DNA from: Liolophura sinensis
Lineage: Eukaryota > Mollusca > Polyplacophora > Chitonida > Chitonidae
Reading direction: 5' to 3'
NCBI RefSeq assembly: GCF_032854445.1
Contig: NC_088300.1
Coordinates: 6,572,001-6,636,000, forward strand
Length of the DNA stretch: 64,000 nucleotides
Shown: positions 3,001 to 45,930 of the stretch, piece after piece
Layout: every line of letters starts with the position of its first letter
Position numbering within the stretch: position 1 is the first letter of the stretch
Made by a program: the position numbers and the translations under genes
Notes under the pieces: model-generated
Databases searched by the model: none
The model's input: only the letters and a program-made list of their open reading frames with translations
Told to the model about the DNA's origin: nothing

Positions 3001-4737
3001 CCCCATTGCCATCTAACAGGACTGCCATCCACACTTGTAATATGTCATATATACATGCTCTATATGCACACAGGTTCCTACTGTTTTTAAGAATACTAGA
3101 ACCCACTGGGGGGTAAAAATACTAGGGAGTATATAGAGGGCTTAGTGTGGCACAACTTACTGGTTAATGCCAAAAGTCCATATACAAAGGCATATATGCA
3201 TTGGGCCGGGCCCAACAAGAAATACCAGGGAAACGTATGTTGACGACATGTTGATCAGTAACCAAGCGGTAATTCAGTACAATAAATATGCACGAATAGT
3301 TTGGATAACTGTTAAAAACAAGAAAAAATGACAAAAACTTTGGTCATAATTTTGTTGAAAAACGAAGACGAAATCTGAATGTGATTTGTTTATCATCATG
3401 GTGAAACAATGCACCTTGTTTCAATTCACTGCGAGCATGTTTTTGTTTATACTGTTATTTACTTTAAAAAATAAAGTTCACAAGGAAATTGCCTACTTCT
3501 TCTACTGCGATAAGTGAATCAAAGTGGTCTCACATTCTGTTATCATATCTTCTTTCCTATCATTATTGGCTGCTTGTACAGGAGGTCTCTATTGTGAGCA
3601 AGTGATGCATGACTGGGTACTAAGTCAGTGGGATCATCTGCCATAAGGACAGACAGGTTAATCCCCTGTTAAAACAAAGCCTGAGTCCTGCCGTGTCAGT
3701 ATCGTACACTGAACACTTTGCAGAGCCTAAATTATTCCTCCTTCCATATGTACGTCCATGGTTTTATTGACTAGAAGAATCTCTTTTACCTTAGAACAGC
3801 CAGGTGTGAATGCCCCTGGAACAGCAAATATCACACCTTTACCACTTGCAAAGAGCTCAGCAATGTTGACCTTGTCATTTGGGGAGCCCTCAAATAGGGT
3901 GACACTGGGCAGCTTATCCCCTACCTAAAACAAAGAGAGTGAGTCAGTGAGTGCTTGACAGTTTAACATCGTACTTAACAATTTTTCAGTCATATGACAA
4001 CAAAGGTATCCTTAGAGTGCATGTAATGTGCCTCCTTGTTGCAGGACAGATCTTCACCACTCTTTTATCTAGTGCTGCTTCACTGAGATGCCTTAGTGAA
4101 GGAAAGTAAGGCGCCCCGCCAAGGCCATTACACTGATACCGGTCAACCAGTCGTTGCACTATCCCTCCATGCTGAACGCAAAGGGAGGAATTTACTTCCT
4201 CTTTTAAAGTCTTAGGAGTGACTCGACCCAGGATCTACCTCTCCCGAAGTGGACGCTTGACCAATTGTGTTATAGGGGACAGTAAAAACAAAGAGAAGAT
4301 AGTTTCACCAAAGACACTGATTACAGTATATATCAACACAACACCTCGATAAAAGATATAGGCCACCTTTATGTATGATGTTGAAAGCAGGCCAAGCTTG
4401 AGCGAACATTCACGGCATACATAACTTGTACAATCCTAAACCCTTTGAGGTTTGACTCAAGCTCTCATCATCATTGAGAGTGGAATTTTGCTTATTTGGT
4501 TGTTCAAAATTTGGAAGAACTCCTGCTGCAACAGACTACAATGTCCAAAGACAACCAAAGTCATTACGTGTAGGCCCTACCGTACACTTACTACCTCACA
4601 ATAACAGTCAGCACCGTCATGCACATACATGAGCCTAATGTGCGTTACCAGATTACCTTGATAGGCATGTTTGAGGTTGCAGACGTTGTTATCTGTCGCG
4701 ACGAGATGAACACACTGTGAATTGCACGACGAAACAT
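1..4737 (-). CDS. PRDX5: Peroxiredoxin 5, 5' part (partial, runs off left edge)
   Basis: Atypical 2-Cys peroxiredoxin that reduces peroxides in mitochondria, peroxisomes and cytosol. Three coding exons fit in phase: 4657-4737, 3790-3924 and 1-76 (continues left). Exon 1 encodes 27 residues starting MFRRAIHSVF, rich in Arg and Ser with no acidic residue, a typical mitochondrial presequence, and ends MPIK. Exon 2 reads VGDKLPSVTLFEG and ends PGAFTPGCSK, which holds the peroxidatic Cys motif of the PRDX5 family. Exon 3 opens THLPGY and reads on to a VACVS strand. All junctions have GT donors and AG acceptors. The resolving Cys lies beyond the window. The internal Met24 matches the start of the known short human form, so two isoforms by alternative initiation are likely. 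Intron 1 carries a SINE beside the exon 2 acceptor. Confidence 0.93.
413..635 (-). mobile_element. MITE-like element, family 2, copy 1
   Basis: A 220-bp AT-rich segment bounded by similar inverted ends: CTGTAAATCTTCAAACTTTTC at the left and GAAAAAGTTGAAGGATTAGGG at the right. A related copy in the other orientation lies at 6409-6624, sharing an internal run around ATATTTTGAAACATTCT. No coding capacity. Classified as a non-autonomous DNA element on its ends and dispersion only; target duplications were not resolved. Confidence 0.45.
653..838. mobile_element. MITE-like element, family 1, copy 1
   Basis: About 185 bp with inverted ends: left CTGTAATTCTTCAACCTTTT, right GGTTGAGGAATTAGGC preceded by TGCACAAA. 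The interior contains GGTAAAATTATACCTTTTT and TGAAATTGGCCAA. Two diverged relatives occur at 40488-40693 and 43146-43364. It is almost adjacent to the family 2 copy. Non-coding, likely non-autonomous. Confidence 0.5.
3939..4284 (-). mobile_element. SINE family B, tRNA-headed, beside PRDX5 acceptor
   Basis: About 346 bp, closely similar to 32738-33103. The tRNA-like head is at the high-coordinate end, and the GAGTGAGT...GTGCTTG...TTTAAC tail at the low end. A target duplication AAAACAAAGAGA flanks it at 3927-3938 and 4285-4296. It sits in PRDX5 intron 1, with its near edge only about 14 bp from the exon 2 boundary. Confidence 0.8.
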
Positions 4738-6770: not shown

Positions 6771-9700
6771 ATGGAGCCTATCGATGAAACAGAAAACCAT
6801 GTGTTTCGGTAAGGGTGCTGTTTTTCTTTTTTTTAAACAAACTAGGGAATTTCACTTGGCATCTTTGTTGCAGATTCTTTACCCTTTGCATAATAGACAG
6901 TTACATGTGGGTTTAACCAATTAGGTGTCTTGAATTCAAATAACATGAGAAAGATGAAATAGTTATACTTTTGCCTCCAATGCAATATGATACCCATGAC
7001 TGACTTTTATGTAAGCTATGGATCACTGGAATTTCTGAATTATGAGAATGCCTTACGGTTGTTGTTGTGTGGGAGTTATAACATTAGAACATAGTAATGC
7101 CAAAATGGTTAGCAAGCAAATGAAGTCATATTTCACATGCCGCATTTGTTACTAAAAGTTTCCTCTGTTTTAGCCTGAAGCCAAAGAAAAGGAAATCCAA
7201 CAGACGGTCCTCAGTAAGTACATGTACTTACTTTTGCACATGTACACATGGTACACACAACAAATGTGTGGGCGGCTGGTACTGAACAATTCATGCTAAG
7301 AAAGACCCCAAAACCAGGCTGTATTATGTGAGCAGCTGGCTCAGTATTATGAGGCAATTTGCACACTCTCTTGGTTTGTGCTTTGTACATGTGTGTAGGG
7401 GTTTCCAGCTAAAAAGGTGGGGGTGAGGTCGCAAAACATTCGGTAATGGGCTGTCTCCTACTACCATGTCCGTCTTGTTGGTTGGGGTAGTGTCAGGGTT
7501 GGTAGTCAATGTTTGTCCTTAGTCACTTTATAACTTTTGTTTCTATATATTGTTTTCTTTGTGGCCTTGTGGAAGAACAGCTTTGTTTGACTGAGCTACA
7601 TGTACCTTTCAAAAAAAAAAAAAATTTTAATTTCATGACGGTACTGGTACCACTTGGTCATTTCATTTGTTTTAAATTTTCTTAAATCATGGAGCGTTAA
7701 GTTTCTCATCTTAAGTGATGACCAGTACAAGAGTTTCTATTTCACTTGGAGATCGTTTCTCATGAAAATCAGTACTGTATGTTAACAGTCACTGAGTGAT
7801 TGTCAAATAATTTCAAACACCATACACGTATAACTATAAATTAGAAGGTACACTGTTGAATCATTTTATCAAATAATTTTTGATGTATTTATAGAAGAGG
7901 TAATTAAGGGTTCAAATATAAGGTTAGGCAACATGAGCACCTATGCACCCACCTTTTAGCCAGTGCAGTGAAAATAGTTTACCAGAGTGCAGCCACATTG
8001 TCAGACTGGGTGCATTTGTGCAAAAATAACATTTTTTCTAATTTAACCCTGGTAATTCATGAAACTTTTGCACATATTTTAGTTTGAAAGTAAAAGGTCT
8101 TGGGATTTATTGTCCAGTTTTGTCTTTTGTAGATTTTGAAGTCTCCAAGCCGTAACAATGCACTAGGAGACTTGGACCCAAATGCCCAGGTAAGTATGAT
8201 ACTCTGAATATCAGCTGTTGTAATATTTGTCTGTGATGTCTTGAATCAGGTATGGCCTGTGCCATTGCAAATGTTATCTGATGTATTATTTTGGCGTATA
8301 CAGCACTTCATACGGTTTGTGGCAGGCATTTTATCACCTGAATGTACCTGTATATTGTATCCCCTGTAAGATGTTGTATATATGTATTAACAGGTGGATG
8401 ACAATCGTATGTCACGCCAGTCTCGGTCCAGGAGAGTCAGCTTTGCAGACACCTACCAGATTTTGTGAGTAGCTCTAAGGTAGTGTCAACTGGAAACTTC
8501 AGAATTATAAACATAAGCCTTATTGTATTGTTGGAAATACACACTTCACCTTTGTGAATTAATGTGATTTGATATCAAAATTTATGTTTGTACTAAGTGT
8601 GCTGTTTCTTTTCAGAGAGTTTGCCAAGGACATCCACAACACACCTGACCTAGGTATCCTGGAAAATACTTGTAAGTTTATAAATAAATGTGCTCTCTTT
8701 CAGTGCAGAGTTTGCTTAGCTTAAAATGTGGCCAAAAAAAGTAATAAAAATACTTTTGTTTTTGTATGTTTGACAGTTTTTTTTTTTTGTTTTAAAAAAA
8801 AAGTAACATAATACATTTAAAGCTGCAGATGTAAATTTACAACTAAACGCGACACTCCATATTATTTAACCCAGTGAACCATTTGGCCCAGTGTTTAGTT
8901 TGGTAGCACAGCGTGTCTTAACCGTCTCACCAATGCATACACAGTGTGTTCTAAAATGTTGGAGGGGCCTCCTTGGCTCAGTTGGTTAGCGCACTAGCGC
9001 AGAGTAATGACCCAGGAGTCTCTCACCAATGCGGTCACTGTGAGTTCAAGTCCAGCTCATGCTGGCTTCCTCTCCGGCCATACGTGGGAAGGTCTGCCAG
9101 CGACCTGCTGGGTTTCCCCCGGGCTGTGCCCGGTTTCCACCAACCATAATGCTGGCCGCCGTCGTATAAGTGAAATATTCTTGAGTACGGCGTAAAACAC
9201 CAATCAAATAAATAAACAAATAAATAAAATGTTGGAAGTTCAAGCTCTTCAGATTGATGACCTTGACAAAAACTAATGTCATCTGATTTAAAGGTGTGAA
9301 TTGTATTAGATTCCATTCAGAGGCATTGTAAGACTTCATGGGAGTGATTAAGTACAACAAACAGTCATTTAGGTGTTTGAACTGATGAATATTTACATTT
9401 ATAGCCCATTTACATTCAAAGTCATCTCTGTGATGCCCTGGGCTCAGTAGTCATCATTTTTCTCTTTAATTGTTAGAAATGAGGGAATGACCAAACCATT
9501 TGACCTCTGTGTTCAAGTCCATCTCATGCATGTCTTTTCACATATACACACTTAACCAAAAAGAGAAGGGGGTATTCTAGTTAGATTTTATGGCCAGTTC
9601 ACATATATAACATTACACATAACCACAAGGATATGGGGGCATTCTAGTTAGGTTTTTATGGTCATCCAGAACATATTTGATCTGAGTGAGTGAGTGAGTG

Positions 9701-11315
9701 CTTGGGGTTTAACGTTGTACTCAACTATTTGATCTGAAGTAAGTTGTTGTCTAAAGTGTAAAGTGATATTCCAAGGACTTGAAATGTATCAGATTATTGA
9801 CCTTTAAAACCCTCAAACTTTCAGATGTTGAGAAAGAGGAGAATGGGGTTAGTGTGAATGATGCTGGCAGTCATATATCAGGTAACCTTCTTAATTATTA
9901 TTTTAGTTCTTGGTTTAAAAACCTTTGTAGATAACTTGGAGGTGAGATTATAACTGGCTGTATTTTATCAAATTCTATGGGCTGTATTGGAAGGTAGTCA
10001 TTTTGCTATTACACTTGGTTATATAAGCACTTTGTAATCTCCTGAGACCATGGTTAACACCTGTTGTATTCCTGGGTGTGCCCAGGTGTGCATACTTGTC
10101 CCTGTACCACACATCCCCGTACCGCATATTTGATCATGAATTTTCTTTTGGAAATTCATTCATGGTTAGGCAGTGCAGCTGCAAACATTCACATAATAAA
10201 ATGACTTTTTGTCAGTAGTACACTTGCAAATCAATTGGCATGGCCTCAAATCCTTGAATATGCCATGTATATGTCTAGTATTGTTGTTGCTATATTGTGA
10301 TAGTTTTACCAAGGTATACATTGCAGCCTGTTTAAAGTGAAAGTTGACCGGTTAATAGTTTATTGTAAAGAGTTTATGATGTGACTTTACTCTTTCTTTG
10401 TGTGTGCAGTTGGTGCTCAGATTTTGTCTTAAGAATCTCAGGGATACAAGGGGTGACCTAATCATTGTTTTATGCCATGTTTGCATTTGAATGCAAGTGG
10501 TTGTATTATCTTTTTCATGGTTAAACAGGTCTGGACAAGCTTCTGACAGGCTCTCTTTGTAATCAACTGTTGGATGACACCCATGAGGTTTGTACGCTGC
10601 TAGTCTGTGTTTGTGTTGTTTGCATTACACACACCACAGAATCGCTTGATGCGCCTTGGCACACTCGACACAACTTTTAAACCTAAAACAAAACTTGATT
10701 ATTTCGTTTTATTGTACCCGTGGTGTGCTGACGTGTAAGAACCTATTGATTCATGTCATCTGCTTTTAGTGCAACAGAACTGTTTAGACATGAAAGTAAC
10801 ATAGACAGAAATACAGACCTGTTTATTTGGTCACTAGTCTACATATGAGTTTGCCCATAAATTTAAACCGTTCCAAGCCTTAAATGGGGCCTTAGAGGTA
10901 ATAAGTGGTTGACAATGTTTGTGTGGCCATTAAAGTGGCCTATGTTAGTTTAACACCAAATCTAGAAAAGCAGCCTTCTGTCCAGTTGTTGGTTCCCAAA
11001 GTTGTAATAGAAAAGAAATAAAGTTTTATTAAGTTTGAGATTATTGTTGAAATGTGCCTCGTGTTAACAGGTTAAGGAACTACCCTTCCCCAAAGACCCT
11101 GATGGGTCTAGCCTGTTGTCTCAGTCTAGCAGCCCCCATGCCAGCTCTGAGCCAGACCAGCCAGGTGCAACAGTGGACATGACTACTTTCATCCAATCCC
11201 TGAGGTCAGCTGCTGATAACCTGGAGCAAGTCTCTGACAGCCCTCCCAAAAAAGTGGATATGGTGGCTTTCCTGAAGACGTTGAGAAAGGTATCCCCTGT
11301 CAAACAACCGCCAGA
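6771..11315 (+). CDS. KNL1: KNL1 exons 1-8: PP1-docking and first two KI-like motifs
   Basis: Encodes residues 1-208. A basic patch KPKKRKSNRR (15-24) is followed at once by SSILK (25-29), split across the exon 2/3 junction, then RSRRVSFADT with RVSF at 59-62. SILK and RVSF are the two PP1 docking motifs of KNL1, and Ser61 sits in an Aurora B type RRVS context. The basic patch next to them matches the known microtubule-binding N-terminus. Exon 8 (11071-11315) carries VDMTTFIQSL (about 161-170) and VDMVAFLKTL (188-197), similar to the human KI motifs (K-I-D-x-x-x-F-[LI]-x-x-L) that bind BUB1 and BUBR1 TPR domains. Exons 1-7 are only 38-71 nt each, so gene finders may miss them. Confidence 0.9.
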
Positions 11316-14300
11316 GTAAGTCCCATTAATGGCCCAAACGCTATTTAACTCATGCCTTTTTGAACAGAAATTTGAAAAGATCATCAATTTTGAATGTTGC
11401 ACCATGTCCTTTCTTCTAGCCATTACATCTTTCTCATTGCTATGTGCCAGATATATTGAATAAGGTGGAAATAAAACCTTTCAAGCAAGAAGATAGTTAC
11501 CTAAATCTTTAAGTCATGCAAATGATGCACTGAAACGTCGTGCTACATGTACATTTCTGATGTATTTTTATTTTTTTTCTGACTTTTATTTCAGATCTGT
11601 CTCTGAGCAGGGGTTTCTTCAGAGCCTCAGTAGAGGAATTTATAATACATCAGATCAAGGTGATGTGTCCACTATAATTAACACTTCATTAAACAAGTAC
11701 CTTTCAAGCCCAGTGTCTGCTGATAAGGCAGGCTTGGGTGTTGAAGAGTTGGTGCCAAGACATAAGTCAGCAGGTGCTCCTGCCAGAGACTTGATGTGCC
11801 ATGAAACTTTTGCAGCTAAGAACCTGAAATGCTATCCCCATACCAGTGAGCAGTTTGCAGAGATTACAGCACACAGGAGCCAGCAGTTGATTTGTAATAC
11901 ACAAACTAGCACAGATGAAATGGTGAAGAAATATGACATCAAACGGTTTCTACAGAAACTGGGAGGTAAAACGTCCACAAACCCCATGATAAGTGATAGC
12001 ACTACCACTCGTCCCAGGGGATTTATGACACATCTAGGAACTCTGCAGGAATCTTCGGAGAACTCTTCTCCAGAAGACCACAACCCAGGCCACAAGATGA
12101 CCTCAGCAGAATTTGCCACATTAAGATGCAGGAAATTTGCAGGGAAACATAAACCAGTTGAGGATAAAGAAAACATGTTTGTGGGTTGTCTCCAGTTCTC
12201 CGTACCCAGGGAAACGAAGGATGGTTATGATCACAGAGAACCAAACTTTTTGGCTGAGGAAAAAACTAATAATGTCCTGAAAACTTTGGACATTACTCAA
12301 AGATTTTCGGGAACTGAAAGCGAGGCAGGAATGGAAATGACCGTGTGCCATGGCAACATTGTTGTTGATAATCATATATTTGGGGAAAACTCTAAACATG
12401 AAATGAAATTCACTGATATGACCCAAAGATTTTCAGGACTGGAAAATGAGGCAGCTATGGAAATGACCATGTGCCACGGCAATTTTGCTGTTGACAGAGA
12501 TGTTGAACAAATGAGAAATCCCACTGATTTTACTCAGAGATTTTCAGGACTGGAAAGTGATGGAGGAATGGAAATGACAGCTTGCCATGGCAGCATTTTT
12601 GTTCACAAACCATTATTTGGGGACAACTCAAGACATGGAATGCAATGCACTGATGTTACCCAAAGATTTTCAGGTCTGGAAAGTAATGCAGGAATGGAAA
12701 TGACAACTTGCCATGGCAACATCATCGTTGACAAAAGCATCCAAGGACAAAACATTAACCACTTGGTGAAAGTTCAAAGTGCTGGACAGGAAGCAAATGC
12801 AGTTATAGCAACAGAAAGCTTAAGTGGAGAAATCAACATATCAAATGTAATCAAATATCAAATAAAAATCCCAAAACATGGAATGAAACATACTGATGTC
12901 ACCCAAAGATTTTCAGGGCAGGAAAGTGATGCTGAAATGGAAATGACAACTTGCCATGGCAACATTGTTGACAAATTTCTTTCAGAGCAAAACACAAAAC
13001 ACACCATGAAAGACATGGATGTTACACATAGATGTTCAGGACAGGACAGTGATGCTGGGATGGAAATGACAATTTGTCATGGCAACATTGCTTTTGACAG
13101 ACCATTCGTTAAGGATAGTTCAAAAGATGGGATGCAACCTACAGATGTTACCCAAAGATATTCAGGACAGGACAGTGATGCTGGGATGGAAATGACAACT
13201 TGTCAAGGTAACATTGTTGTTGACAGACCATTCGTTATGGATAATGCAAAAGATGGGATGCAACCTTCAGATGTTACCCAAAGATATTCAGGACGGGAAA
13301 GTGATGCTGGGATGGAAATGACAACTTGTCAGGGTAACATTGTTGTTGACAGACCATTCGTTATGGATAATGCAAAAGATGGGATGCAACTTTCAGATGT
13401 TACCCAAAGATATTCAGGACAGGAAAATGATGCTGGGATGGAAATGACAACTTGTCAGGGTAACATTGTTGTTGACAGACCATTTGTTAAGGATAATGCA
13501 AAAGATGGGATGCAACCTTCAGATGTTACACAAAGATATTCAGGACAGGAAAATGATGCTGGGATGGAAATGACAACTTGTCAGGGTAACATTGTTGTTG
13601 ACAGACCATTCGTTAAGGATAATGCAAAAGATGGGATGCAACCTTCAGATGTTACCCAAAGATATTCAGGACAGGAAAGTGATGCTGGGATGGAAATGAC
13701 AACTTGTCAGGGTAACATTGTTGTTGACAGACCATTCGTTAAGGATAATTCAAAAGATGGGATGCAACCTTCAGATGTGACCCAAAGATATTCAGGACAG
13801 GACAGTGATGCTGGGATGGAAATGACAACTTGTCAGGGTAACATTGTTGTTGACAGACCATTCGTTAAGGATAATGCAAAAGATGGGATGCAACCTTCAG
13901 ATGTTACCCAAAGATATTCAGGACAGGACAGTGATGCTGGGATGGAAATGACAACTTGTCAGGGTAACATTGTTGTTGACAGACCATTTGTTAAGGATAA
14001 TTCAAAAGATGGGATGCAACCTTCAGATGTTACCCAAAGATATTCAGGACAGGAAAGTGATGCTAGGATGGAAATGACAACTTGTCAGGGTAACATTGTT
14101 GTTGACAGACCATTCGTTAAGGATAATTCAAAAGATGGGATGCAACCTTCAGATGTGACCCAAAGATATTCAGGACAGGACAGTGATGCTAGGATGGAAA
14201 TGACAACTTGTCAGGGTAACATTGTTGTTGACAGACCATTCATTAAGGATAATGCAAAAGATGGCATGCAGCCTTCAGATGTTACCCAAAGATATTCAGG

Positions 14301-17300
14301 ACAGGAAAGTGATGCTGGGATGGAAATGACGACTTGTCAGGGTAACATTGTTGTTGACATGCCATTTGTTGAGGACAGCACAAAAGATGGGATGCAACCT
14401 TCAGATGTGACCCAAAGATATTCAGGACAAGAAAATGATGCTAGGATGGAAATGACAACTTGTCAAGGTAACATTGTTGTTGACAGACCATTCGTTAAGG
14501 ATAATGCAAAAGATGGGATGCAACCTTCAGATGTTACCCAAAGATATTCAGGACAGGAAAGTGATGCTGGGATGGAAATGACGACTTGTCAGGGTAACAT
14601 TGTTGTTGACATGCCATTTGTTGAGGACAGCACAAAAGATGGGATGCAACCTTCAGATGTGACCCAAAGATATTCAGGACAAGAAAATGATGCTAGGATG
14701 GAAATGACAACTTGTCAGGGTAACATTGTTGTTGACAGACCATTTGTTAAGGATAATGCAAAAGATGGGATGCAACCTTCAGATGTTACCCAAAGATATT
14801 CAGGACAGGAAAGTGATGCTGGGATGGAAATGACGACTTCTCAGGGTAACATTGTTGTTGACATGCCGTTTGTTGAGGACAGCACAAAAGATGGGATGCA
14901 ACCTTCAGATGTTACCCAAAGATATTCAGGACAGGAAAATGATGCTAGGATGGAAATGACAACTTGTCATGGCAATATTGTTGTCGACAAACCAATCCTT
15001 GAGGATAACCAAGAACAGATCCATGGCAGTATCATTGTTGACAGGTGTCTTGGAGAACAAAGCACTGGAGTGGAAAGCCATTCAGAAATGAAAATGACAA
15101 ATTATAATGGGGAAATAAACTTGGGTAAAAGCTCAGAAAGTAGCCTAAAAGTGGAAAAGTCATGTAAATCGTCCTCTGAACCTAAACTTCAAGGTTACAG
15201 ATGTGTCTACTCGTCCACACTAGACAACAAGTTTAACACAGTCAGTTGTGTACTAGGGAAGAGAACTTTTCCACTGGGAAGACAAAGTTGTGAACCATCA
15301 CTGTACCCACCTGAAAAGGTGCAGCGTTTATTGGGTCAGACAAAAATACCTTCAAATCTGAGTTACCTCAATAAAAAATTAAATTCTTTGAAGCAGGATC
15401 CAAAGAATTGCAGTTTAGTGTTTGGGAACTTGAGGAAAGCAGAAGAACAGATTTCACATGTGCCAGATGGACCTGGTCCTGTTGCTGGCACAAGTGAGAC
15501 ACGAATGGATAACATAATCAAGCCTATACCTGCAACAGAACGTGATTGTACAGTTAGCTCGGGCAATGAAGATGTCCAAACGACACCAATAAGTGAACTC
15601 AAATGTCACACAGAGGATGCTGGGAAGAAGTCCTCTAATACAAACTTAGGTGAAACATCAGATTGTATTGATAAGCATGATGAAGATGTAGCTAAATCTG
15701 CAAATGCCATTTCACAGGCATTGCTCCATGAGGCCATAGCAGCAGAGTCTGAAGCAGTAAACCAACATAGGACCAGAAAACAAAGCAGTACTGATTCTGA
15801 GGAAGGTAAGTTTACCTCACTCCACGCCTTCATTTATTTTATGATGCTCTTAGTAAATATTTGCCAAGCCCCATAATCACAAGCCGTTTAAGTCAAGTTT
15901 AAGTCTGACTTAAGTTGGATTATCCAGTCCTGTGGGTTATCTTTATTTACTTGTGTACTTGGCTGGTATTTTTTGCTGTACTTAGGTATACCTTATTTAA
16001 CACAGATCAAAGCTTAACTACCAAGGAAAACTGAGCGTAGCTTGGAAGTACCAGATAAAACCTCCTACTTACAGGAGAAGAAAGCGTAACAATGATGCCT
16101 CAATCAGATGACAGAGAATGAAAACTTATTTGCCACTATGCTCTTTAATATTTTTGTTTCTGATTTTTTCTTTTAAAAGAAATGGGTACAGTGTATTTGA
16201 AATTATTTTGGTATGTGTTTGGTGGGCAAACAACCTCTTGGTATGTAACATCGTTGCATAGCAATGATCTAAATAACATTAGGCAAAGACAATATGTACA
16301 AAGAGGTGATCCCAAATACCCAACATACAAAATTATGTTTTTGGGTCTTTCATTTTTAAGTGTCTTTGTGTATTTAAAGGAAAATCAAAACAAATATTGA
16401 AGACCACATTTGCAACTAATTCTTGTCTTCACACTGTTATGTAATTTAATATATAGATTAATTCAAGCCAGCAAGTGATTGATTTGAACAGGAAACTGCC
16501 TTACAATGGTAAAGGTGATAGTGATCTGGACTTGGGCAGTGAAAAACTATTCTATGATTGCTAACCCGCGATTATGTTGATGAATTCACAAGTTCAATCA
16601 GGTGCTTTATCATGTATAAGCTTTAAACAGTTTATCTGTCATACTGAAAATGATATTGAGTATAAGTTATTTTTTATCACCAGACATGCCAGATATCATG
16701 AATGAGCTTGAGCCTGAGCTGTGTGCTCTCTCAGACTCCCCAGAAACTACGCCCCAGAAAAAGATGCCAGATATGGAGCCCATGTTACCTCCCTTTAATG
16801 TGCAGTCAGACCATGTGACAGATGGTCAGAATCCTGGTCCCGAGGATGTTGATGGTGTTGTCTCTGATGGAAATACAGCACCAGAAAGAACAATAAAATT
16901 GTCATATGCCACCTTCACTCAAAAGACTGATGGCGACTGTTTGCTGACAGAAAATAGTTGTGACATGTTAAAACAGTTCTCACTCCGCAGGGGAGGAAAA
17001 CAGGAAAGTGTACAGCTATCTGGGATGTGTGACCTGCTTGAGCAGACAAACAGTGTTCTTGTTACAGAGGCTACCACTGACACTGCACCTGTGGAGACTG
17101 CAGGGTTGTCAAAGCCAAGGGGAGACAAATCCATCATGGATGTGTCTATTCTGCAGTGTTCCCAGGGTGGTAGGGCAAATGTATCCATGAGACGCGAGAA
17201 CACAAGCTGCCAGAACCTCTCCTCGTTCTCATTTCTGGTAAGTCCACAGATTTTGTCTTGTTATCATGATGGTGACATGAGCAAAACTACAAGATCATCC

Positions 17301-20300
17301 AATAAGAAATTCTACAGCCTGGAAAGAGCTTATATTGTTATGCTTATCACTTGAGATATTATTTCACTTAAAGGCAATGGTAATATTTACGGGTGAAGAA
17401 AAATACTGTAACAAGGTGAAGTCTGTGAATATACAAATGCTGTAACAAGGTGAAGAGTCAGTGATTATAGAAATACTGTAAAAAGGTGAAGAGTGTGTGA
17501 GGATACAAACACTGTAACACGGTGAAGTCAGTGAGTATAAAATTACTATAACAAGGTGAAGAGTCGGTGAGTATAAAAATACTGTAGCAAGGCGAATTGT
17601 CAGTTAGTATAAAAATACTGTAACAATGTGAAGCCAGTGAGTATAAAATATTGCAACAAGATGAAGAGTCTTTGAGGACAAAAATACTGTAACATGGTGA
17701 AGAGTCAGTTAGTATAAAAATATTGTAACAGGGTCAGTGAGTATAGGAATACTGTAAAAAAGGGAAAGAATCAGGGTATAAAGCCACAATAACAAGGTGA
17801 TGAGTCTGAGTATAAAAATACTGAAAGTCATTGACAAGTCAAGTACAAGTATGTTAGTCTGCATGTTTAGCATTGTACCTTTGTATTTATTCTCTTGACT
17901 GTATGATCTGATAACTAACACTGACAGATTGATGTCATGTATGAACGTGATTAACCAGTGATCACTCGACCATAAAGCTGTTTATTTGACCCTGTTAGAT
18001 AGGTCATGGTTTAATGTCAGTGTGTCCATCTATAGGTGCATTTGTCTGTACCTACATTGTTTCTGCAAATTTTCAAGTAATTTTCGTAACCATGGATAAA
18101 AAACCTTATGCAGACTCAGCCATGTAATTGTACTCAAGTACTAGGTACATACCTCAGGCAACAAGAAAACCTGTATATCAGTTGTTCTTTTTTTTTTTCT
18201 TTTTTTTTTTTACTGTTTTTTATTCTAAGTAGATGTAGTATTTTATGTCATATAAATTGTGGTATCTCGTATTTACAGTGTAAATGAGATAGTCTTGGTG
18301 ATTCTGTTTCCAGCAGACAGAGCCGTACCTCAGCAAAGCTCCTTGTACAGCTGAACAGTTCATGCAGATGGTCTGTATCACCACATGTATGGACTGGTCT
18401 GCCACAGGGCGCAGGAGCAGCTTCGCTCCACCTCAGGTGACTATGATGTTTTCAAGCTCTGTATTTTTGTGTTTGTCCTACTTCTATGTCCTTGTACTTG
18501 TAGTGTATGTTCCTAGTGTAAAAGAATACTTGTGATATACTGATAGCTTTCTATCAGAGCAGCTACCGTAGATGTGCAATTCATTTGTTGATCACATTTT
18601 TCACATTTCCATTTTGTTCATGTATCTTGTGACATTCTGATAATTAGTTTCATAATACACAAGATCTTTAAGCATAACTTGCTTTATGGCCTGATTTGCA
18701 TGGCATCGAATAGACTGGTGTTTAGGTGTCAATCCTATCATGATGAAGACAGTTCACATTAAGAAGGGGGATTTCACATTAAATGAACTATGCCTAAATC
18801 CTGTATCGTTGGTTTCTTTACAGCATTAAGTCTGGATGGTTGTCGTGTTCCTGGTGAAGGGCAGTACCTTCCCACATTCTATGTTTTGTTTCTTCCACTC
18901 ATAAATCATTATACATTAATCAGTTTATACAAGTGCCATATTCTTGTGTGTCTCAATGAAGTGAATAAATACATGACTGTGATGAATGATAAAGTGTCCT
19001 TGATTGTTTAGTGTCATGTGGAAGACCTGAGCTTGAGTGAGATCCTAGACAAGGTGCTTATTGACAGAGCAGAGGTATTGATGGTAGAGACAGCAGTGGA
19101 AGAAATGGAGAGCCAAAGGACCAGGTAAACCTTTACAGTTACAGCTGAGATTTGGAGTGAGGGGTTTTGAGGTGGGGATGGAGATAGACACAAAGTAGTA
19201 TACATCTCTATCTACTGTTGCTGAGTGAGAAGTGTGGACAAAGCAGCCTACATCTAGCTCTACCTTCTACTCTGTTATGATAGAACAAAGTTAGTGTAAA
19301 CTGTTAGATATGAGTGTAACATATAATGTAGGAAAGAGTTATTACTTTTACACCTGGAAAGCCATGGAACTAGATGTATACATGTATAAAGTAATTCTAA
19401 GTTATGAGAGGGACATGCATTAGTACTGTATTTATTAATACATCAGAAATAGGTAATTTTTATTGCTAACTTTTTTTTAGATATTATTAATGCTGCTATA
19501 ATGATTCAGTTGTAGATGAAAAGTAAAAATTAAATTTTCCTTTACTCCTAGAAATAGAACCAAGTTACAACCATGTACTGTTAGACAGGAAGGGCCTCAG
19601 AACTAAGTAAACTAACAAGACTGGTCATTGTATTTTGTCCTAGTTATACTGTAGTATTCTCTTTTATGGTATTATGGCGGATTCTCACTATTTTTATGTC
19701 TTGTTTGTGTAGACTTTTATCAATAATGAGAGAACTAGAGCAGGATATAGAAGACAACAGTCCGGATGTTTTTCAATACATCGTCCAGTCAAAGGAGGAG
19801 GTAAGTCTGAGAACCTACAGCAACGGCCTGAACACCATTATGTGACACCCAAACTGACAGACAAATAAATCAGAATGACAGATTTTGAAAAAGTGGTGGT
19901 GGTGTCATAAGAACATGTATAACAGTATTTTTAATGATCAGTATTAGGGATATCTCAGCATAAAGAGTATTTTCTACACTGGTGTCTTCAGGTTTGGTGC
20001 GACTGCTTGTCTTTGGCTAAGTAAGTGATTATGAGTGCTTGTCCGTGGCTTTTTATTGATAGGTTAATGAGTTACTTTAGACGCTGTTATGGTTTCCTTC
20101 TGGGGGCATTTCTTCTTTCTTGATACCTGATTCAACCCTTGCACACATGAAACTGTATTGCATATGCTGGGGAAGAAAGTAGTGAGAAAGTAAAGGCATT
20201 GTTTGTTTTGTGTTAGTTTGAGGAGATCAAGAGGCAGTCGCTATCGTGCTGGTCAGCTTGTAGGAAGAAGGCCAAGCTGATGGGCAAAGAGAGCAAACTA

Positions 20301-23300
20301 AGATGGCTTGTGGGGGAGAACGCTGCTCTACAGGTGAGCCTCATTGCTGTGCACATGTGGAACATCAGTTTGGGTTAGAAATTACCCCACATTAATTTAA
20401 CTTGTATTACTGGTGGAATTAATCTTTTTTGAGTGTAGGGTGGAGGGTATCAAAATTAAAGTGGAAAATCATCTGTATGCTCTCTCAGATATTAAAAGCA
20501 TTGCATGTAATTTATTTATCGAGGCCTTTAGGCACATAAGGGCCTTAAAATTATACTTTTTACACCAACATTTATGTTTATCCTATAAGAAATTAATCAA
20601 GCTTCACAAGAACTAAGAGTAGCCCTATAATGTAGATGAATCAATCAGAATTAAGTAAAGTGTGTCAATTTGAAAATGGCAAACTTAAGGTGAAATACAA
20701 TATTTCCATCAAAGAGATAGAAATATTAAGCAGATGGAAATAGCATATTGATGAAGTTACCCTAAATAACACCTTAAAATTTCACCCACAAAAGTGCATT
20801 TTTAGAGACAAATAAATGTAACAGAATATTATTTTTTTTGGCTGTAACTTTTGGCTGTAACTTTTGGCTGTAACTAATTTGCCAGTAGAATATCATCCCA
20901 TGTTCAAAGCAAACCTCAAAATATCCGGCTAAAATTAATACAACTCTCAGAATCATGATAATGGGCAAGGTAGTTATGGACGAAAGTTATGGTTAGTTAG
21001 GCTACTTGTATTGGCAGTGTGTCTTACATGTTTTCACTCTTTTGGATTCCTCTTTTTCTGTCTAGAAGATGTCAAGCATGTGAAGTTTGTATTTTGATAT
21101 TGTAGGCCAACAAAGTCAGGATGTCTGAAGCATTGCAGGAAGTCGAGGATAAGTGTCAGTCTGCAGACATGTTACTGCAGACTATTGATGAAGGTTGGTT
21201 ACCTTGACGCAGGTGAACATGAGCTAGTTGGTTGTAAAAGGGGCTGGGTTTACACTGGCATACATGTAAATAGTGTTAGTTACACCAGACACATATAGCT
21301 CTAGCATTTTACAAGCAGTGATCTTTTGAGGGGGTTCTTCATATAAAAACTGACAGTATTTTGATTACCAGCAACAGCTTTTCATTATCTTGTTCCAGAA
21401 ACGAAAGGAAATGTTTTCTACTGATATCAGTTTACCGAGCATCCATGATGAAACAATAATAATGCCGTGTTACTTCATACATTTTGCCTCTAAACTTTTA
21501 GTTTCAGCTGAAGATTCCATGTTTTTGTGAAAATTTGGTTTTGTTTATTTTTTTATAGTTCCTTGGAGATTTTTTTTTATCTTACATTTGGTGGGAAAAT
21601 AGTCACATGTCAGGAAATCTACACATGATGAGAAATTATTGCCTGTCATATTCAGGCTTCATTGAAGAGAATTTTTGTATGAAGTTGTGACTGGTTCATT
21701 GAAGCACTTCAAATTTTGGTAAAATGAAGATGAAGGGTTCAATGTGCTTCAGTTTGATTCACTAAGTATCTTATGCACTATGTTAGTATAACCAGCTGTG
21801 ATGTTTTTTTTTTTGACCATTGATGTGTGTGTGTCGCTTCAGCTATGGCAACTGAGTTTAGTGAGTTGGGCAATAGCTGTGAGCCCTCAGAGGAGGTGGA
21901 TGAGACAGATGGTAGTTGTGCAGCTTCAGAGGCTGGCCTCTGTGAGGAAAATCAACTTCAGGCTCAACTTGAACTAGCTACAAAAGGTGAGTTGTTTCTT
22001 TTTTTCATTCAATTCAAACACACTTTCAGAAAGGAAACAACATAGGGAGACCATGTTTATCTGCTCCATATGAACAAATGGCTGGTGAATAATGTGACCG
22101 TTCCTTTCTTGTGAGTATTGTGAGATTTTTCTAAGGGACTTTCCTGTTGAGTGATGTATGATTTTGACATAGGGCTGCTAGTGTTATGGTGCACATAAAG
22201 TGTATGATGCATTTTCTTAACCATAATGAGTTTATGTGTGTTCTAAAATGGAAACCTTATGATTTTTATTGTACTATACTTTACAGGAAAAGATGAATGT
22301 GAAGCTAAGGTGGCCACCCTGAACAGGTACAGTATGTCTCTGTTACAACTCCTGAAATAATAAACTTAGCATTACACAAGTAGTGTTACACTGAAAAACG
22401 AAACTTACCAGTGGATCTACTGGATTTTAAACTTAGTATATCACAAAACATACACTTTCCCTGGACCGTGTTCTCTCTTGGTTGACATTTAGCTGGTTAC
22501 ATGTTGAAACTAGGTTCATTCTCTTTGAATTCAGGACTGTCTTATTCATGTACATGAATAACAGCGATGTACATGTGGTTGTGATTATCAGAAAGTTGCA
22601 GTTGATCAGCTATATGATAGTCACTTTGTTTTCTTTGTGTTGCTAGCTTTGAATATTTTCAGTGTTAACAAATGGTGGTGTTTCTTTTTCAGGGATTTAA
22701 CACAACTGACAGAAAATAATGAGATTTTAAATGTGGAGATGATAAAACTGAATAAGGAATTGAATGAATTGACAATAGAAGAGGAGGAAATAGACAAGGA
22801 AATAGACAAGCTGAGAAACCAGTTCATTGCTCACAAACGGTTAGTTCTTTCCTGGAGAATTTTAACTGCCTGTTATATCATATATTCTGAAATATATGAA
22901 ATATAATGTAATATAGTGTCATGGAAGGAAATAGGAATCTGTCAAAGACTTCACCTCTGCACCAGTAGGTATGGAACCTGTTTGTTAGCTGGGCTTTAGA
23001 GTGCTGAGAACATTTTGTGTAAAAGTCACGACCGAAAACATTTGTATGGCACCAACTCAGCTCCATCATGGAGGTCAACTTCCAGAGCTTAACTAAATAT
23101 TTATTCATTTCACATACGTGTTAAATTATTTTTATATGAAGTGCTCGAAACGTGAGTCTGCATATAGGTGTTACATTTAATGATGACTCAAATAATTACA
23201 TGATCTATTGCTGATCAATCTAGTATGGCTTTATGGTGTTACAGTTTAGTAGAGTGGACTGTGGTAGAATTCTGTGAGCAATCTGCTAGCTTCCTGTTCC

Positions 23301-26178
23301 TGAATGGCTATATCCGTGTGGTGGTGGAGTTTGGGCAGGACCAGAGCACTGACCTAGCTACACCTCTCATAGACCTCATCAAAGTACAGTTGGCTCTCAC
23401 TGGTATGTACTACTGATGCACTCACAGCTAAACCTTTGCTCTCTTGTAGAGTTAAACGATAACTACAAGATTAATATGTTGTATAGCTGTAAGATTCCAA
23501 TATGTGTTCAGATTAAAACAAATTTGTGGTAAAGATGATTTATCAGCATTAGTATCAAATTTCAAATCTGTCCTATCCCAAGTTATCAGTGTTGTTTTGA
23601 TTACTAATATTTTCAGTGTATGCCTTGTATGTATACTGAACAAAAAAAGAAACTTCACATTTGGAGAAATTAATCATGTTGAAAATGGTTTGTAAAAGGC
23701 AGTTAATATGAGCGAATAACATTATACCCAGGTCTAACCTGACGCATCCAGCCACGTGTGGTGAAGCAAGCAAGGTGCATGCAGCTCACTCTTTTGTGAA
23801 AAGGCAGATGTTCAAGAGCTGTGTGCCATGTTGATACAGCAGTGGCACAGGTTGCCTAATGCTGTGTTCACAAGTGTTAGGCAGTCAGTGAGACAATGAT
23901 GCCTTGCTGTTTTGAATGTGAGAGGGGGCAGGTACTGAACAAGCTCCACCCAATACAGATGGAAAGTCATCATGCTACTGTTTACTGTGGAGGGTGCACC
24001 AAGGGCACCTGGATGCCTTATTCTGCTTAGTGTATGCTCATTGCACCCCTAAACCAGATTTAGCTACTAGCAATACACTTTGTTCTATATACAGTGTATG
24101 TGGGTATGTTTTGAACATAAAGTAACAGATATAAAGTTTCATTTGTTGTTCATTATGTATCCTTGTAGAGATTATAAAGTGCTTGTTAGCTCTATTAAGT
24201 TGTGATGTATTGATATTGCCACACAGACGATGACAGGCCAGAGTTTGTACTGGCTCACAACATGGTGGCATCAGCCTTGTCTGCAGATATTCTGGAATGC
24301 TACGAGACAAAAAAAGATTTGCCGAAGGTGAGAACAAGGTTAAAATGGTGACTACTGGACATTGTGTAAATTTGGTCGTTTTGAACTTGAGAATACTAGA
24401 CCTGATTAGACTAAAGATTGTAGGTTAAGCAATGAATAATCAGACTGTAATATGCCACTGGTGTCCTGTGTAACTCCCAGAAACTCCCAGAAAATTTTGA
24501 TTCCATATTTTGGCCTATGGAATCAAAATGATTTTTTAGGTTTTTCGAAGTGACATTGTGATGTTAAAGTGACTCTGGTCCATTCATCTATCAACAACAT
24601 CACAAACAGCTGTTTCAAATGTGATTATACATGAATGGAGAGTGTCACCAGTGACGTTGTAGTGTCCCAAAAACAGATAAGGCATGGACTTTTTCCATTC
24701 TTTGTAAGATTACACATTTGTAAGGATTTATTTCAAAATTCTTAACTATTTTAAAAATACTTGATGAATTATTTTCAGAAAGAAAATTTACACCATCTTA
24801 TACAATAACAGGAGAAACATGTTGACAACAATTATGGCACAAACTGAAAGCAATGCAGTTCACTGTTGATGCTTTATTGGGGACATATATGTCCAGCTAA
24901 ACCGTGCTATTCTCCACCTTTCAGCTTTTGATGGATATTTCCAAAACTGTATGGATAGGCAAGTCTCTACAGAGGGACCTGAGACATGTTCAGTGTACAC
25001 ACCAAGTACAGGTGTGTGGCACAAGGTATGGTCACCTGTCATTCTTTAAGTAGTTGGTGAAATTTTCATCATTCAGTACTGGCAAATATTTCCATAGCAT
25101 GTGTCTTCTATAATAGTTTTATTGTTTGATTCATGCTTCACTCTGTTCTCAAGAATATACACTTATGGGACATTTGGGCATTTGGACTGAAGTAGTCATG
25201 CTACCCTGCCTAGCCACTGTTTTACATTGTTCCCAAGAATATACACTTATGGGACATCCGGGCATATGGACTGAAGAAGCCATGCTACACTGGTAGCATA
25301 TATATATATTTGATATATGTAATCAAATAAATAAATAAATAAAATAAATACACTGCCTAGTAGACATGTCACTACATTGATCAATATGTAGTTGTCAGAA
25401 TAGAGGCATGGTAATAATAATCCTTGCAGTGACATGCAGTATTGGCGTATCTCAAGACAGTAATGGTCAATCTTAAGTTACACAAGTTCAAGGTAGTTTG
25501 TTCCAATGGTCTGTCTCATGTGTACGTTTCACATTTTGTTTATTTCAGCATTTCAGTATACTTTATCAGTATCTCCAAGGTTCAGAAGTGTTGTGTTAGG
25601 TTTGACTTCACTCCAAGTTTAGGCGACCTACCTCCAGCTGCAATTACCGTCCAGACCATTATTGGGGATGTTGAGTAAGTCATTCAGCATTCATCAATAA
25701 TATATTTCAGCAAAGATGTGTTTTAAGTCCCAAAACCTAAAGAAAGAATTCTTCACTGAAGTGGAAGTTTACAGGCAGAGAAAACCAGTTTTGTATTATC
25801 TACTTTGTAACCTTTCGTTAAGTCTTCATGCAAGGGAAGAAATACTGTAGTAAACAGGGCACTGTTGATCAGAGGTGTGCATTATCCAAGCAGGAGTCTA
25901 CAGATGAATTTGTTGTGACTGTAAAATAGATGTACGTGTAGGCTGATACATTCACACTTACAGGTGCAAATGATTATAGGGCATCAATCGGAGACAAAAA
26001 CACTAAATGTTTCTTAATGCTTTCTGAATTTTATAGGGAGAAGAAAATAGCGAAGGCTGTTGAAGGGTTGTCAACAGAGAAGAACTATCTGAAGAGCATG
26101 GTGGAGGCTGTGGAAAAAGTAGTCCTGGACAAAGATGTGGATAACTTGTGGCCCTCACATACAACTATATACTCATGA
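6771..26178 (+). CDS. KNL1: KNL1 (CASC5/Spc105/Blinkin), kinetochore scaffold, complete
   Basis: Outer-kinetochore scaffold of the KMN network; it recruits BUB3-BUB1/BUBR1 and PP1 and binds the MIS12 complex. Twenty-three coding exons join in one frame (6876 nt, 2291 aa): 6771-6808, 7174-7213, 8133-8189, 8394-8464, 8616-8671, 9835-9891, 10529-10587, 11071-11315, 11595-15805, 16684-17237, 18314-18436, 19012-19124, 19713-19800, 20217-20333, 21106-21193, 21843-21986, 22287-22326, 22693-22839, 23245-23402, 24227-24327, 24925-25025, 25549-25674, 26037-26178. All have AG acceptors and GT donors and every phase matches. Order: basic N-terminus, SILK, RVSF, KI-like motifs, KEN box, 21 MELT-like repeats, coiled coil, tandem RWD. 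The start is the first Met before the basic patch. Length is near the human protein (about 2300 aa). The 5' UTR was not placed. Confidence 0.93.
8964..9225 (+). mobile_element. SINE family A, full-length, in KNL1 intron 5
   Basis: tRNA-derived SINE of 262 bp. Head GGCCTCCTTGGCTCAGTTGG holds a pol III A-box, and GAGTTCAAGTCC a B-box. Body GCTGGCTTCCTCTCCGG to CCGGGCTGTGCCCGGTTTCC, tail GAGTACGGCGTAAAACACC and an (AAAT)n end. Perfect 11-bp target duplication AAAATGTTGGA at 8953-8963 and 9226-9236. Open frames in it are not genes. Confidence 0.9.
9685..9732 (+). mobile_element. SINE family B tail fragment in KNL1 intron 5
   Basis: GAGTGAGTGAGTGCTTGGGG and TTTAACGTTGTACTCAAC match the tail end of the 32738-33103 element. 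Only about 45 bp remain. Confidence 0.7.
11595..15805 (+). CDS. KNL1: KNL1 exon 9: giant exon with third KI-like motif, KEN box and MELT array
   Basis: A 4211-nt exon, open throughout; true boundaries are the acceptor TTTCAG before 11595 and the donor GTAAGT after 15805. The open frame seen 5' to 11595 and past 15805 is intron. YDIKRFLQKL (near residue 320) is a third KI-like motif. DKENMF (near 398) is a KEN box, placed as in human KNL1 where DKEN follows KI2. Residues about 438-1347 are the MELT-like repeat array (separate entry). After it come a degenerate MKMT unit and an unstructured Ser/Lys-rich tail. Confidence 0.93.
12283..15012 (+). repeat. MELT-like phospho-docking repeat array (21 units, mostly 126 bp)
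   Basis: Protein repeats about 42 residues long. Core: D-[VIM]-T-Q-R-[FY]-S-G-x(6)-[GRAE]-M-E-M-T-x-C-[HQ]-G-N-I-V-V-D. TQRF/TQRY fits the T-x-x-aromatic part, MEMT the MELT core (MPS1 site that binds BUB3), and C-H-G takes the place of S-H-T of the human repeat. Units 1-6 are diverged and variable in length; unit 4 has a longer spacer. Units 7-20 are near identical, 126 bp each. Units 16-21 alternate two variants, giving a 252-bp dimer. A 22nd degenerate unit with MKMT lies near 15090. DNA identity among units 7-20 is high, including silent positions, which points to recent unequal exchange. Confidence 0.92.
16684..22839 (+). CDS. KNL1: KNL1 exons 10-18: linker and coiled coil
   Basis: Exon 10 (16684-17237, 185 codons with the split codon) is an acidic, Pro/Ser-rich linker. 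Exon 11 encodes TAEQFMQMV and, at its end, GRRSSFAPP, like the conserved segment with a RRS box that precedes the coiled coil in animal KNL1. Exons 12-15 are helical and charged (for example LLSIMRELEQDIEDN). Exon 16 is a Ser/Glu/Cys-rich insert, and exons 17-18 return to heptad-like helix with many Glu, Lys, Leu and Ile residues (KLNKELNELTIEEEEIDKE). This coiled coil is where ZWINT binds in vertebrates; that role here is inferred. Confidence 0.85.
17398..17828 (+). repeat. Minisatellite in KNL1 intron 10, about 36-bp unit
   Basis: About 12 degenerate copies of a unit near AAAAATACTGTAACAAGG followed by TGAAGAGTCAGTGAGTAT. Unit length varies from about 30 to 38 bp, so it is not frame-preserving. 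It starts about 160 bp after the exon 10 donor and is purely intronic. Confidence 0.85.
20833..20877 (+). repeat. Short 14-bp tandem repeat in KNL1 intron 14
   Basis: Three consecutive copies of TTTTGGCTGTAACT-type sequence. Short and intronic; no function implied. Confidence 0.75.
23245..26178 (+). CDS. KNL1: KNL1 exons 19-23: C-terminal tandem RWD domain
   Basis: Encodes about residues 2083-2291. Exon 19 opens LVEWTVVEFCEQSASFLFL, like the human EWDVVEW...VFTFVY start of RWD-N. Exon 22 gives strands ISVYFISIS and CCVRFDFTPSLGDLPP, the second RWD sheet. Exon 23 has LSTEKNYLKSMVEAV, matching the human LENNYLKNVVKQI helix, then a short tail ending with TGA at 26176-26178. In human this module binds the NSL1 tail of the MIS12 complex and so anchors KNL1 at the kinetochore. 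Introns 19-22 contain a transposase relic and an 84-bp duplication. Confidence 0.9.
23640..23990 (+). pseudogene. Degraded Tc1/mariner (IS630-like) transposase fragment in KNL1 intron 19
   Basis: Starts with AACAAAAAAAGAAACTTCAC, typical of Tc1-type ends. Within it, 23830-23940 translates to QQWHRLPNAVFTSVRQSV, a stop, then CLAVLNVRGG. This resembles the C-terminal W-x-x-[IL]-P...R-R-C-x-A-V...R-G-G-x-x-R-Y block of IS630/Tc1 transposases. It is broken by an in-frame stop and lacks the catalytic core. Family call is from recall of that motif. Confidence 0.4.
25144..25288 (+). repeat. 84-bp tandem duplication in KNL1 intron 21
   Basis: Two copies starting AAGAATATACACTTATGGGA at 25151 and 25235 and ending near CATGCTAC. 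A few substitutions separate them. Intronic. Confidence 0.8.
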
Positions 26179-26229
26179 TATATCAACACTTGTGTTTAGT
26201 GCTGTCTACTGCTGTCACTATAAAGTATC

Positions 26230-27104: not shown

Positions 27105-28505
27105 AATGTGAGTCAAGGTGGTTCTGAGACCAGTACCAGCCAGTCCCTGAAACTCCTGCTAGTGTGCCAGTGAGTGCCAGGATAGTTGTCTAGTTCTTGG
27201 TGAGGTAAGGTGGTTCTGAGACCAGTACCAGTCAGTCCCTGAAACTCCTGCTAGTGTGCCAGTGAGTGTCAGGATGGTTGTCTAGTTCTTGGTGGGTCAC
27301 GGTGGTTATGAGAGCAATACCAGCCTGTCCCTGAAACTCCTGGTAGTGTGCCAGTGAGTGTCAGGATAGTTGTCTAGTTCTTGGTGAGGTACAGTGGTTT
27401 TGAGACCAGTACCAGTCAGTCCCTAAAAACTCCTGCTAGTGTGCCAGTGAGTGCCAGCATAGTTGTCTAGTTCTTGGTGAGGCACAATGGTTTGGAGACC
27501 AGTACCAGTCAGTCCCTGATACTCCTGCTAGTGTGCCAGTGAGTGCCAGCATAGTTGTTTAGTTCTTGGTGAGGCATGGTGGTTCTGAGACCAGTACCAT
27601 TCAGTCCCTGAAACTCCTGGTAGTGTGCCAGTGAGTATCAGGATAGTTGTCTAGTTCTTGGCGAGGTACAGTGGTTCTGAGACCAGTACCAGTCAGTCCC
27701 TAAAAACTCCTGGTAGTGTGCCAGTGAGTGTCAGGATAGTTGTCTAGTTCTTGGCGAGGTACAGTGGTTCTGAGACCAGTACCAGTCAGTCCCTAAAAAC
27801 CCCTGCTAGTGTGCCAGTGAGTATCAGGATAGTTGTCTAATTCTTGGTGAGGTACAGTGGTTCTGAAACCAGTACCAGTCAGTCCCTGAAACTCCTGTTA
27901 GTGTGCCAGTGAGTGTCAGGATAGTTGTCTAGTTCTTGGTGAGGTACAGTGGTTCTGAGACCAGTACCAGTCAGTCCCTAAAACTCCTGCTAGTGTGCCA
28001 TTGAGTGCCAGCATAGTTGTCTAGTTCTTGGTGAGGCACAGTGGTTCTTAGACCAGTACCAGTCAATCCTTGAGACTCCTGGTAGTGTGCTAGTGAGTGC
28101 CAGGATGGTTATCTAGTTCTTGGTGAGGCACAGTAGTTCTGAGACCAATACCAGTCAGTCCCTAAAACTCCTACTAGTGTGCAAGTAAGTGTCAGGATAG
28201 TTGTCTAGTTCTTGGTGAGGCACAGTGGTTCTGAGACCAGTACCACTCAGTCCCTGAAATTCCTGGTAGTGTGCCAGTGAGTGTCAGGATAGTTGTCTAG
28301 TTCTTGGTGAGGCACAGTGGTTTGGAGACCAGTACCAGTCAGTCCCTGAAACTCTTGGTAGTGTGCCAGTGAGTGCCAGGATAGTTGTCTAGTTCTTGAT
28401 GAGGTAAGGTGGTTCTGAGACCAGTACCAGTCAGTCCCTGAAACTCATGCTGGTGTGCCAGTGAGTGTCAGGATAGTTGTCTAGTTCTTGGTGAGTTGTG
28501 GTGGT
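27105..28505 (+). repeat. 92-bp minisatellite downstream of KNL1, about 15 copies
   Basis: Unit of about 92 bp built from GTGGTTCTGAGACCAGTACC, AGTCAGTCCCTGAAACTCCT, GTGTGCCAGTGAGTG and GTTGTCTAGTTCTTGGTGAG. Copies differ by a few bases, with small indels near CTGAAACTCC versus CTAAAAACTCC. Starts about 930 bp after the KNL1 stop. No long frame in it. Confidence 0.92.
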
Positions 28506-34946: not shown

Positions 34947-39843
<4,897 letters not shown>

Positions 39844-44250: not shown

Positions 44251-45185
44251 AAGTTTCTTTAATGTAGCCACCCACTATCATTTGTTGGCAATAGGGTGCC
44301 AATTAGAACAGACAAACTGTTTTTCATTATTACTTGCTGCACACTATACATATTTCAAATCAGCCAATGCGCTTGAGGATCCCTTCTAATCTTAAAATTA
44401 AAGTACCAAAAAAGTAAGCCAAAAACTAACCTTAAACTGGAAACTGATTTCTATCTCTAACACTTTTATTTTCTTTCGTTGCTCTTTACAAGATATTTAA
44501 TACAGCCCTACATTTCATTCCTCACAAATTTGATTTAATTGACACATGCTTTCCACAAATCATATATACATTCATATATGTATTATGAATACTGCCTTTA
44601 ATAGATAGTAAACATGTATTTGGTTATGTGAACACAGAGTCAATGAACTCACCAGTCCTCTACAAAGGGAAGCAAATCTTGTAAATCTTGGAATAGCACC
44701 CCCATACCACACCCATGAAACCCAATATTATAATCAATGTAACTGATGCTTGCGACCTCTATCTACATGAATAATAAAACAAATCACAAATGATTATGGC
44801 AGGAATAGTTATTCAAATAGACAGAAGGCACTGCTGCCCCAAGGCTGAAGAGTTCCAATATTAGATTCCTTATGTTTGAGGTCTGGTGAGCTCCAGTGAC
44901 ATCAACCACATGCGCACTGCAAACTAGAGTCTGCTTCACAAAACATTTTTAGTATTACACACACCCACACATTTAACATCTGTCGTAATCACCTATGGAG
45001 GTTCCGTCATCATGGCAGTTAATGCCCATGTAACACAACAAACACTTCATGACAGTGGCCTCTGAAAAAGGAACTAGAACTTTTTAATTCATCTAGTAAA
45101 CAAGAAATGAACAAACATTGCTATTTCTCTACTAACGATACACATGCATGTAGGTGTGTGCTAATTTATCCGACCTACAAGTAGG

Positions 45186-45930
45186 ATCTTAAATCTTGGC
45201 AGTATACATATACCTTGTACAGGATTTATAAATATTGGCAGTATACACAAACCTTGTACAGGATTTGTAAATCTTGGTAGTATACATATACCTTGTACAG
45301 GATTTGTAAATCTTGGTAGTATACATATACCTTGTACAGGATTTGTAAATCTTGGCAGTATACACATACCTTGTACAGGATTTGTAAATCTTGGCAGTAT
45401 ACACATACCTTGTACAGGATTTGTAAATCTTGGTAGTACACACATACCTTGTACAGGATTTGTAAATCTTGGTAGTATACATATACCTTGAACAGGATTT
45501 GTAAATCTTGGCAGTATACAAGGTGTACAGGATTTGTAAATCTTGGTAGTATACATATACCTTGTACAGGATTTGTAAATCTTGGCAGTATACACATACC
45601 TTGTACAGGATTTGTAAATCTTGGTAGTACACACATACCTTGTACAGGATTTGTAAATCTTGGTAGTATACATATACCTTGAACAGGATTTGTAAATCTT
45701 GGCAGTATACAAGGTGTACAGGATTTGTAAATCTTGGTAGTATACATATACCTTGTACAGGATTTGTAAATCTTGGCAGTATACATATACCTTGTACAGG
45801 ATTTGTAAATCTTGGTAGTATACATATACCTTGTACAGGATTTGTAAATCTTGGTAGTATACATATACCTTGTACAGGATTTGTAAATCCTGGCAGCATA
45901 GACACACCCTGTACAGGATTGGTAATTCTT
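45186..45930. repeat. 39-bp minisatellite, about 19 copies
   Basis: Unit CTTGTACAGGATTTGTAAAT then CTTGGTAGTATACATATAC (39 bp). Because 39 is a multiple of 3 and the unit lacks stops in several frames, long open frames of up to 287 codons arise on the minus strand, and shorter ones on the plus. Their 13-residue periodic translation is a by-product of the repeat. Two shortened units with ACAAGGTGTACAGG recur 191 bp apart (45519 and 45710), so a block of about five units was itself duplicated. Confidence 0.93.

Follow-up and report, generated by a model that had tools for sequence, protein, structure and literature searches.

A probable KNL1 orthologue in the chiton Liolophura sinensis with 21 MEMT motifs in a single exon

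It is established in other organisms that MPS1 phosphorylates the Thr of MELT motifs in KNL1, that BUB3 reads the phosphorylated motif, and that PP1 reverses the signal. Published MELT counts range from 2 to 27. Human KNL1 (CASC5, Blinkin; PDB 8ppr_K) has 19 motifs and about 10 TxxF/Y modules (PMC7614552), and only about 7-8 of its modules are active (PMC10577578); many of its MELT-like motifs are degenerate, and SHT follows most of the strong modules. The MELT2 motif of budding yeast Spc105 that was crystallised with BUB1-BUB3 (PDB 4bl0) reads MEMT (PMC3779320), as do the chiton motifs described here, but Spc105 has only five or six motifs and, in the part of the literature available to us, no report of a TxxF/Y-CHG module. 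A close counterpart in array composition is the engineered human KNL1-19xMELT (PMC10577578), which like the chiton protein has about 19-20 near-identical intact modules per KNL1, but is artificial and carries SHT, whereas the chiton array is natural and lacks the SHT Thr. Human cells with 19xMELT KNL1 disassemble BUB defectively, form hyperstable attachments and align their chromosomes poorly (PMC10577578). A literature search found no paper on mollusc KNL1.

The window, which is the whole stretch of DNA analysed here (64,000 nucleotides of contig NC_088300.1), contains on its forward strand a gene of 23 coding exons (6771..26180) that encodes 2,276 amino acids from ATG to TGA in one continuous frame with AG/GT splice sites. 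The exon model was built by hand, and the stretch joining exons 20 and 21 is its least certain part. Exons 1, 1b and 2 (6771..8189) encode the N-terminus, including the PP1-docking SILK motif as SSILK at residues 25-29, and exon 3 (8394..8464) encodes the PP1-docking RVSF motif as RRVSFADT at residue 58. Human KNL1 has SILK and RVSF near the same residues, 25 and 58, with KI, TxxF/Y-MELT and RWD in the identical order. The sole PDB match of the N-terminal 630 residues is to CASC5/KNL1 (6czo_B, a CASC5 PP1-binding fragment; E 0.13), and it is aligned over SILK and RRVSFADT. Exon 7 (11071..11315) contains two pattern matches to KI-like motifs of the BUB TPR-binding type, TVDMTTFIQSLR and KVDMVAFLKTLR, and a third, KYDIKRFLQKLG (11929..11964), is in exon 8 (11595..15805; 4,211 bp), which also holds the entire docking array and the sequence downstream of it. 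All three lie between RVSF and the array and are close sequence matches to the human KI definition, KI[D/N]xxxF[L/I]xxLK (PMC3267040), with none exact; the KI-like pattern has three matches in 438 residues and none of 20,000 shuffles had three, although the pattern was written post hoc and this significance is overstated.

Downstream of the array, exons 10-17 (18314..22839) encode a helical region that is read as coiled coil from its sequence only, and exons 18-22 (23245..26180) encode an RWD-like C-terminal domain, which in human KNL1 is the Mis12-complex anchor. The C-terminus aligns weakly to human CASC5 (4nf9_A) in two colinear stretches (phmmer, whole-sequence E 0.00073); the PF18210 (KNL1 RWD) profile has no match in the genome searched exon by exon, which we do not read as absence of the domain. 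Because SSILK, RRVSFADT, the three KI-like motifs, the MELT array, the coiled coil and the RWD-like C-terminus occur in the human order, the gene is very probably a true chiton KNL1 orthologue, acting as a spindle-checkpoint scaffold. The features of the KNL1/Spc105 family are present, namely multiple M-[E/D]-[L/I/V/M]-T motifs, SILK with RVSF, and a coiled coil with an RWD-like end. An initial annotation had named the gene KNL1, which is borne out by the alignment of SILK/RVSF and the RWD-like end to CASC5 and by Pfam MELT_2 and MELT matches to the array.

Neighbouring genes in the window include a redoxin-family exon resembling peroxiredoxin 5 (3727-3924, reverse strand), a G-patch exon (39622-39843, forward strand) and a C2H2 zinc-finger protein gene (48158-49276, reverse strand). 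Three minisatellite arrays with higher-order periods are found at 27118-28495 (92/277 bp), 45183-45937 (39/191 bp) and 61685-63514 (43/431 bp). A SINE-like dispersed element, tRNA-like in its head and AAATAAATAAA in its tail, has four core copies, one on the forward strand (9143-9170) and three on the reverse (38712-38739, 49683-49710 and 59377-59404). Elsewhere in the genome we note eight mollusc-type haemocyanin domains in a row on contig C8, and seven tandem mitochondrial COX1 copies on contig C99, which was apparently assembled as a concatemer of the mitochondrial genome.

The array (12286..15030, forward strand) lies within one exon, as had been proposed, with the acceptor ATTTCAG before 11595 and the donor GTAAGT after 15805. 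An exact motif count in the exon 8 frame gives 21 MEMT motifs at 12331-14961, all contained in an open frame of 1,459 codons at 11497-15876, and the units are mostly 42 amino acids (126 bp) long. TRF reports a 126-bp period with 17 copies at 12872-15008 and related copies from 12292, and with a score of 3400 the array is not a matter of chance. Both Pfam MELT_2 (E 2.5e-29) and MELT (E 3.4e-16) match the array exon above cut-off, a single unit searched against the PDB gave no match, and the array locus is single in the genome. The array is predicted to be disordered.

Twenty of the 21 MEMT units match the strict pattern T-Q-R-[FY]-x8-MEMT, in keeping with their description as TxxF/Y-MELT-type docking modules, and 19 of these 20 also have C-[HQ]-G. 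The two departures are unit 6 (13015..13140; motif count and unit alignment), in which THRC replaces TQR[FY], and unit 20 (14779-14904), which has SQG in place of C[HQ]G. The initial annotation had listed 21 complete repeats and had ascribed TQR[FY] and C[HQ]G to each; its number is right for MEMT, falls to 20 by its own rule for completeness, and its uniform formula fails at units 6 and 20. Its coordinates and its geometry were correct, the MEMT starting 12 residues from the Thr and nine from the aromatic position in every unit. The residue at +1 after MEMT is Thr in 17 of 21 units (MEMTT), and the +4 position, equivalent to the Thr of human SHT, is Gly in all 21. Two degenerate units beyond the 21 had been overlooked: one without MELT between units 4 and 5 (12760..12880), where the unit 4 interval is 81 amino acids and which appears to be a decayed unit, and a last unit (15031..15130) with MKMT (at 15088) but no TxxF.

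In addition to its 21 MEMT motifs, the chiton protein differs from human KNL1 in having C[HQ]G, three KI-like motifs and a longer spacing between Thr and MELT. This spacing is 12 in the chiton, outside the 9-11 of human modules with a clear TxxF/Y (one further regular-expression match at 14 being doubtful), in a comparison that used a human KNL1 sequence one residue off 8ppr_K in the stretch shown. The initial annotation had proposed a lineage-specific spacing and had noted that nearly all units retain both core parts; the chiton has 20 TxxF/Y-MELT modules that are intact, and human KNL1 about 10. It had also pointed to the missing SHT Thr; the Thr is indeed replaced by Gly throughout, but this is not a striking loss, since SHT priming is thought to be unique to vertebrates (PMC7614552) and its absence is to be expected. 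Taken together, chiton KNL1 is of an ordinary kind; its motif number falls high within the known range, and what distinguishes it is its uniformity.

How this uniformity arose can be approached from the relationships among the units. Among units 7-20, which are recently duplicated, most pairs share about 90-98% identity (lowest 88%), and the most divergent units are at the array edges (units 1-6 and 21). At the array end, units 16-21 (14275..15030) form repeating pairs with a higher-order period of 252 bp, and the core of unit 16 is the same as that of unit 18. Most probably, the 21-unit array expanded by tandem duplication, units 7-20 and two-unit blocks being the latest to be duplicated, and selection preserved the docking core of almost every unit during this growth. 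Unit-to-unit dN/dS in the docking core is 0.09 for all units and 0.05 for the divergent units only, compared with 0.50 and 0.55 outside it, with core columns picked with the alignment in view; using motif columns preset from the human definition, the permutation p is 0.0003 when only the divergent units are compared and 0.034 with all 21. The units share ancestry and comparisons among them are not independent, and these values are to be taken as indications, but they point to purifying selection on the docking core between units, with dN/dS of about 0.05-0.09 there and 0.4-0.55 outside it.

Homogenisation alone would also preserve unit sequence, and the strongest alternative, to which we give somewhat less than an even chance, is that array size is near-neutral, being set by tandem duplication and unequal exchange with few working units, the uniformity reflecting recent homogenisation and not selection for number. 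The near-identity of units 7-20, the identical cores of units 16 and 18 and the position of the most divergent units at the edges are consistent with this, as is the fast turnover of MELT motifs across eukaryotes (Tromer et al. 2015, as cited in PMC7292645 and PMC10577578). However, the older, divergent units keep TQRF, MEMT and CHG although core dS is about 0.7, and only two units are degenerate, which counts against it.

Genes for the expected partners are present in the genome. The BUB3 gene was assembled from six exons, and its product is the same as human BUB3 at all nine MELT-pocket residues. Relative to the nine yeast BUB3 residues named by Primorac et al. (PMC3779320), K193, Y194, R217, F238, R242 and W278 are unchanged, and the other three are conservatively replaced, F236 by Tyr and both R239 and R283 by Lys. 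An MPS1-type kinase exon (HSDLKPANFL...VGTLNYMSPEAI) is on contig C1. One MadBub locus was found using a Pfam search and its own TPR exon as a query, an approach that a divergent second copy could escape; its TPR matches human BUBR1/BUB1 (E 1e-27). The locus (L013 and L014, G000:C6:64956000-64975999) encodes a KEN box (WELSKENVQPL), the TPR, a GLEBS-like stretch, ABBA-like motifs and an HGDIKPDN kinase motif. The PF08171 (Mad3_BUB1_II) profile has no match exon by exon in the genome, which again is not read as absence. The MadBub gene is apparently undivided and of the pre-duplication type, and molluscs are not among the 16 lineages with duplicated MadBub listed in PMC5204127. We note that three KI-like motifs occur with a single MadBub gene found, whereas human KNL1 has two KI motifs, which bind the TPR domains of BUB1 and BUBR1 and are divided between these two proteins.

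By analogy with the established pathway, the RWD end would attach chiton KNL1 to the Mis12 complex, and MPS1, perhaps with PLK1, would phosphorylate the Thr in each MEMT, so that one BUB3-MadBub complex could dock per phosphorylated module. The KI-like motifs near the N-terminus would hold the MadBub TPR domain, and PP1 bound at SILK/RVSF would reverse the signal. The Gly at +4 would remove the second phospho-site, and many of the modules are likely to be usable; phosphorylation, binding and cellular occupancy of the chiton modules are all predictions from these comparisons.

The initial annotation had further suggested an unusually high valency, which is only partly supported: the motif number is within the published range and close to the human 19, although only about 7-8 human modules are active, and it is the uniformity of the 20 intact modules that stands out. 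The stronger form of this idea, that each chiton KNL1 recruits far more BUB complexes than that of other animals, offset by weaker modules or fewer KNL1 copies, we consider rather unlikely. In its favour are the 20 intact TxxF/Y-MEMT modules, compared with about 10 TxxF/Y (PMC7614552) and 7-8 active modules (PMC10577578) in human, and the abnormally high BUB loading per KNL1 of engineered human KNL1 with at least 12 active modules (PMC10577578). Against this, few human modules are occupied simultaneously (PMC12102207), a single strong MELT can be enough in yeast (PMC7292645), and the missing SHT Thr may reduce affinity per module. We suspect that most modules can be used but that only a fraction is occupied at once. 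A still more speculative picture, and an improbable one on present evidence, is that of a natural high-valency scaffold with about 20 equivalent, singly phosphorylated modules lacking the SHT boost and serving one undivided MadBub. Scarcely credible, and rejected, are the readings of the array as untranslated, as a pseudogene or non-coding minisatellite, or as part of an unrelated repeat protein, given the open frame of 1,459 codons and its canonical splice sites, the KNL1 N- and C-terminal features flanking it in order, the excess of synonymous over amino-acid changes between units, and its single locus in the genome.

The strength of the checkpoint and the speed at which it is switched off are set by how many MELT modules there are and how strong they are, and human cells with 19 active modules mishandle chromosomes (PMC10577578), whereas the chiton naturally has about 20 intact and uniform modules. 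If high functional valency were true of this animal, its checkpoint strength would be tuned differently, by many uniform weaker modules as opposed to a few strong ones, and it would tolerate an array size that is harmful to human cells. Chiton KNL1, without the SHT site and with an apparently single MadBub, provides a test case for the co-evolution of array size, module affinity and the BUB1/BUBR1 split.
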